The position numbers were made by a program, and so were the translations under genes. A DNA stretch of 34,569 nucleotides from Acidobacteriota bacterium (GTDB lineage Bacteria > Acidobacteriota > UBA4820 > DSQY01): assembly GCA_021813555.1 (NCBI GenBank), contig JAKAKG010000061.1:1-34569 (forward strand), in the 5' to 3' direction. Positions 32,224 through 34,569 of the stretch are shown one piece after another (position 1 is the first letter of the stretch; each line of letters starts with the position of its first letter). The notes under the pieces are model-generated. The model was not told the DNA's origin. It worked only from the letters and a program-made list of their open reading frames with translations, and made no database searches.

Positions 32224-32793
32224 ATGGGAGCCTGGGAACTGGTGGCACTGGCCGTCTCGCTGGCCATGGACGCCTTCGCCGTGGCCGTGGCGACGGGCGT
32301 GGGGTTGAGGTCCGTTTCGGGCCGCCAGACCTTCCGCCTCGCCTACCACTTCGGCCTCTTCCAGGCCCTCATGCCGGTCCTGGGGTGGGGCGCCGGCCAC
32401 ACCTTCGCGGGGGCCATCCAAGCCTTCGACCACTGGGCTGCCTTCGGGCTCCTCGCCATCGTGGGAGGGCACATGGTCCTGGAAGCCACCAGGAAAGGGG
32501 ACGGCCGGCCTCGAAGAGACCCGACGCGGGGACTGACGCTCGTGGTCCTCTCGCTGGCCACCAGCATGGACGCCCTCGCCGTCGGGCTCAGTCTGGCGCT
32601 GCTGAACGTGTCCATCTGGTGGCCCGCCTTGATCATCGGGCTGGTGTGTGCCGCCTTCACCGCCGCGGGGCTCCACCTGGGCCGGCTGGCGAGCGCGGCC
32701 ACGCGGCTGGGACGGTGGGCGGAACTGTTGGGAGGACTTGTGCTGCTGGGCATCGGCCTCAAGCTCTTGTCCCAGCATGGGGCCTTGGGCTGA
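32224..32793 (+). CDS. mntP: Manganese efflux pump MntP-like
   Basis: A 189-residue membrane protein with six hydrophobic segments in two related halves. Each half carries the family's acidic motif: AVSLAMDAFAVAVATGVGLR in helix 1 and SLATSMDALAVGLSLAL in helix 4, where the Asp residues are needed for Mn(II) export in E. coli MntP. A charged cytoplasmic loop (ATRKGDGRPRRDPTRG) separates the halves. GGGGAGGG precedes the ATG at 32224. The upstream gap is only 84 bases, holds a possible -10 in GTACTAAACT, and is too short to show a yybP-ykoY Mn riboswitch. The neighbouring Mn/Fe superoxide dismutase suggests manganese homeostasis. Confidence 0.9.
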   Translation: MGAWELVALAVSLAMDAFAVAVATGVGLRSVSGRQTFRLAYHFGLFQALMPVLGWGAGHTFAGAIQAFDHWAAFGLLAIVGGHMVLEATRKGDGRPRRDPTRGLTLVVLSLATSMDALAVGLSLALLNVSIWWPALIIGLVCAAFTAAGLHLGRLASAATRLGRWAELLGGLVLLGIGLKLLSQHGALG

Positions 32794-32873: not shown

Positions 32874-33209
32874 CTATCCCTTGCGCGGCCGGGGACTGGT
32901 CTTGAGGACGCGCAAGAGTTCGCCGGCCTCCTTCTGCAACGAGGCGGAGAGTTTGTCGCCCGGGTCCATGCCCAGGATGGTTTCCTGGAAGGCGGCGAGG
33001 CGGCAGGGATTTTGGAGGGGATGTCCGTCCCGAATGCCCCAGTTGCATGCGGCGCAGGTTTCGTCACACCCGATGGCGTGGAGGTCCGCCGGCAGGATTA
33101 TGCGGCGCATGTGGTCTTGAAGCGTGCCCAGGGACGAGAGCTTTTTGGTGCGCGCCACTTCTTCCAGCACCTTGGTCACTTGAGTCAGCCAGTTTTCAAT
33201 GGACGTCAC
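32874..33209 (-). CDS. Small hypothetical protein with CX3CX2C cysteine cluster
   Basis: A 111-residue protein of unknown family. An N-terminal helix (TSIENWLTQVTKVLEEVART) and a middle helix lead to GCDETCAACNWGIRDG, giving C48-x3-C52-x2-C55, with C69 in LQNPCRLAAF. The C-terminus is helical and basic. CX3CX2C is the spacing of the radical SAM iron-sulfur site, but the protein is far too short for that fold, so a small Fe-S or zinc site is more likely. The GTG start at 33209 is chosen because GGAGGA lies about 7 bases before it. It is divergent from a radical SAM gene 162 bases away and convergent with mntP. Confidence 0.6.
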   Translation of the reverse strand: MTSIENWLTQVTKVLEEVARTKKLSSLGTLQDHMRRIILPADLHAIGCDETCAACNWGIRDGHPLQNPCRLAAFQETILGMDPGDKLSASLQKEAGELLRVLKTSPRPRKG

Positions 33210-33371
33210 GGGGGAGTCCTCCCAGCAAGGCCAGCAGTGTGACCAAAGGCGCGCCACAAATCAAGCCCGGAGCGGATGGCTCCGGCGGCGGCGCGCCCGC
33301 GAGCAGAAACGGCGGGCCGATCCTTGACAGGCCGCCGTGGCGGCGATAGGGTCCGGGATGGAGGGGCAGCC

Positions 33372-34569
33372 ATGGGAGACGGGTCCCTGTCCCGGCGGCG
33401 GTTCATGGGCGCGGCAACCCGGTGGAGTGCGGCCCTGTGCGGAACCGGCGCGCTCCTCTCCTCGCGCGAACTTCTGGACCTCCTCGGCGCCGGAGCGCTG
33501 GACCCCGCCGCCCAGCCCCTCGACGACCTCATCCTTCGGGCTCCCGTGGCCCGCTACTGGACATCGCCCCGGGCGGCCAAGCCGGACTGCGCCGCGTGCC
33601 ACAGCCCCGCCGAACTGGCCAAGGGCGCCGAGCACATCCACACGTCCCGAACCGTGAAATGCCTCCTCTGCGCGCACCTGTGCCTCATCCCCGAGGGCGA
33701 GCGCGGGCGGTGCCGGGCGCGCATGAACGTTCACGGCGAGCTTCGGTCACTCGTGTACGGCCGCCCCATCGCCGAGCACGTGGACCCCATCGAGAAGAAG
33801 CCCTTTTTCCATTTTCTTCCTGGGTCTCAGGCTTACTCCCTGGCCACGTCGGGGTGCCCCCTGCGGTGCAAGTTCTGCCAGAACTGGACCATCTCCCAGG
33901 CCAGGCCCGAGGACTACGACGCGGCGTACTGCCCCGCCGAGGCCATGGCCAACCGGGCCAAGGGGCGGGGCGTCCCGGTGGTGGCCTTCACCTACGACGA
34001 ACCCACGGTCTTCACCGAGTACCTCACGGACATCGCCCGCTCCGCCCGGAAGCTGGGCCTCCGGTCCATACTCGTCTCGTGCGGATTCATGAACGAGGCG
34101 CCCCTGACGGAGATGATCGAGGTGCTGGACGGCATCAAAATTGACCTGAAGGGCTTCTCCCCCGCCTTCTACCGAGAGGTGAGCGGCGCGGAGCTGGCTC
34201 CCGTCCTTCGCAGCATCAAGCAGGTAGCTCGGTCGGGGCGCCACCTGGAGATCGTGAACCTTGTGGTGCCCACCCTCAACGATTCGCCCGCCATGCTCAC
34301 GGAGCTCGCCAAGTGGATCGCGGGAGAAGCGGGGCCCGACGTCCCCGTTCACTTCACGCGCTTCCACCCCGACTACCAGCTTCAGAATCTTCCTCCGACT
34401 CCCGTGGCCACCCTGGAGCGGGCCCGGGAGGCGGCCATGAAGGAGGGCATCCACTATGCCTACGTGGGCAACGTGCCCGGCCATCCCGGGAACAACACTT
34501 ACTGTCCCAAGTGCGGGAAGGTCTGCATCGCGCGAACGGGCCTCTTCGTCACCGAGATCAAGATGAAGA
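33372..34569 (+). CDS. Radical SAM protein, AmmeMemoRadiSam type, with Tat-like signal (3' end cut)
   Basis: A reading frame open to the window end, with 399 residues visible. The start ATG 33372 has GGAGGGG 5 bases before it. The N-terminus SLSRRRFMGAATRWSAALCG is a twin-arginine signal pattern (RR-x-F, then a hydrophobic stretch). A CAACH motif follows, then KCLLCAHLCLIPEGERGRC, the Cys-rich N-terminal region of this family. The radical SAM core is ATSGCPLRCKFCQNW (CX3CX2C), followed by FTYDEPTVF, GIKIDLKGF and HFTRFHPDYQ. A second Cys pair, YCPKCGKVC, lies near the window end. It resembles the pyruvate-formate-lyase-activase-like radical SAM partner of AMMECR1 and Memo proteins, which are not visible here. 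Export of a radical SAM enzyme would be unusual. Confidence 0.88.
   Translation, partial: MGDGSLSRRRFMGAATRWSAALCGTGALLSSRELLDLLGAGALDPAAQPLDDLILRAPVARYWTSPRAAKPDCAACHSPAELAKGAEHIHTSRTVKCLLCAHLCLIPEGERGRCRARMNVHGELRSLVYGRPIAEHVDPIEKKPFFHFLPGSQAYSLATSGCPLRCKFCQNWTISQARPEDYDAAYCPAEAMANRAKGRGVPVVAFTYDEPTVFTEYLTDIARSARKLGLRSILVSCGFMNEAPLTEMIEVLDGIKIDLKGFSPAFYREVSGAELAPVLRSIKQVARSGRHLEIVNLVVPTLNDSPAMLTELAKWIAGEAGPDVPVHFTRFHPDYQLQNLPPTPVATLERAREAAMKEGIHYAYVGNVPGHPGNNTYCPKCGKVCIARTGLFVTEIKMK

Follow-up and report, generated by a model that had tools for sequence, protein, structure and literature searches.

The window (the whole 34,569-nucleotide stretch of DNA that was analysed) is the end of contig C42 in a genome assembly of 3.3 Mb that is 98.6% complete and has Acidobacteria as its closest named relatives. 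The open reading frame that starts at position 33372 encodes the radical SAM enzyme of AmmeMemoRadiSam, scoring 323 bits with TIGR04337 against a cutoff of 220, and its frame stays open to the end of the window because the contig stops there. Its translation reads MGDGSLSRRRFMGAATRWSAALCGTGALLSS...KPDCAACH...HIHTSRTVKCLLCAHLC...GCPLRCKFCQNW. From the N-terminus, the protein presents SRRRF, a modest hydrophobic stretch, CAACH, the family CX2CX3CX9C site and the radical SAM CX3CX2C motif, in that order (Table 1). A GGAGG sequence seven bases 5' of the ATG at 33372 supports this start; the nearest in-frame ATG further upstream, at 33276, is preceded by a weaker site. Upstream of this gene, a gene for an MntP-type manganese efflux pump occupies 32224-32793, and between the two, on the opposite strand, there may be a gene for a small protein that contains Cys (32874-33257).

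The remainder of the locus was found on contig C76, which matches the last 279 bases of the window (34291-34569) with 274 identities (98%) and 5 mismatches, so that C42 and C76 are probably contiguous apart from differences between strains; such differences seem to have broken the assembly at this point. C76 supplies the C-terminus of the radical SAM protein, followed by genes for a 549-aa fusion of Memo and AMMECR1 and for a 716-aa membrane protein, and in L037, a relative with 97% identity, these three genes stand together on a single contig. Both domains of the fusion score above their NCBIfam cutoffs, and its N-terminus has a Sec-type signal. The Memo and AMMECR1 genes that the preliminary description had proposed to look for just beyond the window are thus present directly downstream, as one fused protein. 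The motifs PHAGY, NHT, EHSEEVQ and SSDLSHY are retained in the Memo domain, and an alignment with human MEMO1 matches several of them. A second radical SAM gene of the AmmeMemoRadiSam type is found elsewhere in this genome, on contig C59 (L007:3372-4412); it is signal-less and has no Memo or AMMECR1 gene beside it.

Table 1. Features of the radical SAM gene, its partners and its homologues. Positions without a prefix are those of the window; L numbers denote loci of the genomes compared.
Feature	Position or locus	Strand	Remarks
AmmeMemoRadiSam radical SAM gene (TIGR04337)	33372..34569	+	3' end cut by contig end; rest on contig C76 (L006)
Shine-Dalgarno GGAGG for ATG 33372	33360..33364	+	read in the sequence and by start scan
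Twin-arginine motif SRRRFM	33390..33407	+	RR in 26/26 and 12/12, clade alignment
Moderately hydrophobic region of Tat signal (GAATRWSAALCGTGALLSS)	33408..33464	+	translation, alignment
CAACH, haem c attachment pattern	33588..33602	+	C, C and H each 26/26 in insert-bearing members
HIH, candidate distal haem ligand(s)	33633..33641	+	11 and 13 residues after the CXXCH histidine
Family Cys-rich site CX2CX3CX9C	33660..33713	+	four Cys invariant in 84 sequences, exported or not
Radical SAM cluster motif CX3CX2C (CPLRCKFC)	33855..33878	+	invariant; aligned to pyruvate formate-lyase activating enzyme
716-aa membrane protein	L006:1170-3320	minus	7 TM, spermidine-synthase-like domain, 6-7 TM; adjoins exported genes across phyla
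DUF362 protein	L149:1343-2329	minus	Tat motif
DUF362 protein	L168:5309-6370		
DUF362 protein	L135:6066-6890		
Sec-type radical SAM homologues	L070, L073, L076, L079, L088, L091, L097, L105		genomes without TatC/TatA

Scanning 84,980 species genomes from a collection, and 60 relatives, for homologues yielded 106 comparable sequences. The window gene belongs to a clade of 39 sequences (SH-aLRT 100) whose hosts include Acidobacteria, Deltaproteobacteria, Eisenbacteria, Krumholzibacteria, Ignavibacteriales and others; the clade alignment took in 38 members, 26 with the CXXCH-bearing insert and 12 without. At the cluster cysteines, the Cys4 site and the other family-defining positions, no variation was seen in either exported or non-exported members. 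An AF2 model of a homologue (L038; pLDDT 93) has pyruvate formate-lyase activating enzyme as its closest solved fold. With the cluster cysteines and the Cys4 site unchanged throughout, there is no sign of a dead enzyme. The Cys4 site probably binds an auxiliary cluster or a metal.

The twin arginines are invariant across several phyla (38 of 38 aligned clade members), and most other relatives in the exported branch also have Tat-like N-termini. Both TatC and TatA are encoded in the source genome. A Sec-type N-terminus replaces the Tat signal in eight members, including Omnitrophota, which stand on three separate branches of the tree, and a search for TatC and TatA found neither in any of these eight genomes. 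TatC was present in 54 of 56 Tat-type genomes versus 0 of 8 Sec-type genomes (Fisher p 1e-8), a comparison in which L102 and L103, which have incomplete N-termini, were classed with their Tat-type neighbours, and in which some absences may be assembly gaps since many of the genomes are MAGs; the record of L091, a Sec-type genome, is titled as a chromosome. Of the two Tat-type genomes in which TatC is missing, L083 does have TatA and is perhaps just incomplete; in the other, L089, the motif has decayed to KR. L107 had been a further Sec-type candidate; it belongs to the non-exported clade, starts only 22 residues before the core and has TatC in its genome, and it was left out of the comparison. 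That the type of signal tracks the available export machinery argues for selection on export itself.

The insert of approximately 20 residues carries CXXCH in all 26 aligned bearers. A distal histidine follows 11-14 residues past CXXCH in 26/26, mostly seven residues before the Cys-rich site, and the remaining insert columns reach at most 14/26, except for His 88 (15/26) and His 90 (24/26). In 10 of the 12 aligned insert-less members, CXXCH and the distal histidine were lost together; the exceptions, L050 and L060, keep the distal histidine. On the tree, the distribution of CXXCH fits one gain and three losses within the clade. The combination of a Tat signal and CAACH on a radical SAM protein, first noticed in this single sequence, was thus confirmed by translation and by the clade alignment and is not due to chance. 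Judging by the alignment, the joint conservation of CXXCH and the distal histidine would be the constraint expected from a bis-His haem c, and covalent attachment of haem is likely. If the protein is exported, CXXCH would lie on the extracytoplasmic side of the membrane.

Enzyme export could also be combined with an insert that does not bind haem: CXXCH and the HxH pair might instead hold zinc, iron or copper, or form a disulfide. We consider this unlikely. A metal could be held by CX2C followed by histidines with C2H2-like spacing, and a Pfam search of the protein matched Radical_SAM only, with no cytochrome c family match. Tat moves folded proteins, and covalent attachment of haem to a folded Tat substrate is unusual. 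To a substrate that arrives folded, haem could be attached only at an exposed loop; at the insert, the confidence of the AF2 model for the L038 homologue is only moderate, which is compatible with such a loop. Human Memo binds Fe and Cu (PMC11918410), so that metal chemistry would suit the partner. Against a metal site or disulfide, the histidine directly after the second cysteine is invariant (26/26), as expected of haem c, whereas a CCHH metal site would not need it, and cytochrome c assembly genes are present in all of the bearers searched.

Those assembly genes were in fact found in all 38 genomes searched, including genomes without CXXCH; the idea that the motif was lost through loss of cytochrome c maturation was rejected on this ground. 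Because the assembly genes are also kept in genomes that lost the motif, the haem appears to be an optional addition. CXXCH is missing from most exported members. The preliminary description had envisaged an exported enzyme with the haem as a possible electron source or, alternatively, a signal that only anchors the folded protein. The exchange of Tat for Sec signals and the partners described below uphold the export, whereas the haem cannot supply electrons to exported members in general, because most of the others do not have the insert and three losses of it fall within the clade. In the branch that has it, the haem could relay electrons. Multihaem cytochrome neighbours were sought in the flanks as electron donors, and none were found there.

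The partners of the enzyme share its predicted destination. Memo-AMMECR1 lies directly downstream of the enzyme and has a signal peptide or lipobox. The membrane protein had no place in the preliminary description. Among loci with at least 4.5 kb of flank on both sides, a signal-bearing Memo adjoins 22 of 27 exported enzymes versus 2 of 35 signal-less ones, and the membrane protein adjoins 24 of 27 versus 2 of 35; because the tree implies only about three changes of export state, both associations characterize a single old lineage rather than many independent events, and the independent-pairs test of export against the membrane partner thus rests on few events. The two signal-less positives are L092 and L098, where the membrane protein is encoded close by but on the other strand. 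Genes for DUF362 proteins occur in some Tat-type lineages, either separating Memo-AMMECR1 from the radical SAM gene or immediately preceding that gene, which makes DUF362 a candidate for a further component.

If the N-terminus merely tethered the protein, or if translation started downstream of the signal, the enzyme could work in the cytoplasm, where radical SAM enzymes normally find the SAM and reductant that they need. Many members have no clear AxA cleavage site in the alignment, as a tether would predict, and in L075, L092 and L098 a signal-less radical SAM protein adjoins a signal-bearing Memo-AMMECR1 fusion. We nevertheless regard both possibilities as improbable. The good ribosome-binding site at 33372 speaks against the downstream start, which the preliminary description had named as one finding that would overturn its reading. 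In addition, the Tat signal is kept where Tat exists and swapped for a Sec-type signal where it does not, the positive charges of the Sec-type N-termini precede the hydrophobic stretch and so indicate an N-in, C-out orientation, and the partners are exported. Export of the radical SAM enzyme, as predicted from these sequences, is well supported, because the Tat motif is invariant, the partners carry export signals and the exchange of Tat for Sec occurs exactly in the genomes that lack Tat machinery.

In the AF2 model of the membrane partner (pLDDT 91), seven helices precede and six or seven follow a central domain with a spermidine-synthase fold, for which the best structure match is 1uir (TMt 0.75). 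Loops after even-numbered helices are richer in lysine and arginine, with 7.4 against 1.5 such residues in the first half and 9.0 against 1.9 in the second half. By the positive-inside pattern, the N-terminus is therefore predicted to be inside and the soluble domain outside. Two acidic residues, E301 and D333, which we take to be the nucleoside-binding positions of spermidine synthases, are kept in at least 90% of membrane-partner sequences. The catalytic Asp of IIDxTDP is not conserved, being replaced by ILSAMPEP in this clade and variable elsewhere, and scores with spermidine synthase models are far below the curated cutoffs. We infer that the membrane partner binds SAM or a product.

We know of no occurrence of SAM in the periplasm, and Tat can carry bound cofactors. 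The problem of SAM would vanish if the exported protein performed no radical SAM chemistry outside and served as an iron-sulfur electron carrier, or if it made one turnover with SAM loaded before export by Tat, but we give this very little weight, since the cluster and family-defining positions are as invariant in exported as in cytoplasmic members and the adjoining membrane protein has a SAM-type fold with its nucleoside-binding acidic residues retained.

The reading that we favor, and hold to be somewhat probable, is an exported variant of AmmeMemoRadiSam, with an enzyme moved by Tat, exported partners, a haem c relay in this branch, and a membrane partner that handles SAM or 5'-deoxyadenosine. 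As its signal sequence suggests, the enzyme would fold and take up its iron-sulfur cluster(s) in the cytoplasm and then cross the membrane via Tat. Outside, it would stand beside the Sec-exported Memo-AMMECR1 encoded in the same operon and beside the membrane protein, whose spermidine-synthase-like domain is predicted to face the same side. In this branch, the insert of approximately 20 residues, with CXXCH and the distal histidine, may bind a bis-His haem c, which would pass electrons from periplasmic carriers to the Cys4 site and on to the radical SAM cluster. In the weakest step, the handling of SAM, or of the 5'-deoxyadenosine formed when it breaks down, may fall to the membrane protein, outside the cytoplasm. 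A more far-reaching version is possible but doubtful: a complete radical SAM pathway outside the cytoplasmic membrane, in which the enzyme's own haem c provides the route for reductant, SAM arrives via the dedicated membrane protein and a substrate would be modified together with exported Memo-AMMECR1.

To our knowledge, radical SAM enzymes are regarded as cytoplasmic, since they need SAM and low-potential reductants. A widely conserved exported radical SAM enzyme raises the questions of where its SAM and its reductant come from. It appears that a whole radical-chemistry module sits outside the inner membrane. Memo and AMMECR1 have human counterparts, and the exported operon, which adds a new partner in the spermidine-synthase-like membrane protein, may reveal the function of AmmeMemoRadiSam. 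Genome contexts of Memo were reportedly treated by Burroughs et al. 2019. Our full-text literature searches returned no description of an exported radical SAM enzyme, although exported forms may have been noticed earlier.

As in AmmeMemoRadiSam (TIGR04335, TIGR04336, TIGR04337), the radical SAM, Memo and AMMECR1 proteins are encoded together, and all three models score above their cutoffs. In contrast to that system, all components here have export signals, Memo and AMMECR1 are fused, a spermidine-synthase-like membrane protein is encoded next to them and this branch has the CXXCH insert. Pyruvate formate-lyase activating enzyme (3cb8, 3c8f) is the closest solved fold, and its radical SAM core, including CX3CX2C, aligns with that of the window protein; however, it is cytoplasmic and has no Cys-rich N-terminal domain, signal or CXXCH. 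With c-type cytochromes, the protein shares CXXCH, a distal histidine and a genome that contains cytochrome c assembly genes, but it matches no cytochrome domain, and its motif lies in an insert within an enzyme that takes the Tat and not the Sec route. The central fold of the membrane partner and its nucleoside-binding acidic residues are those of spermidine synthase/polyamine aminopropyltransferase (PF01564; 1uir), whereas its domain is flanked by 7 and 6-7 helices, is predicted to lie outside and does not conserve the catalytic Asp. Score and context place the window protein in the AmmeMemoRadiSam family, of which it is a new variant with respect to its location, its partner gene and its haem motif.
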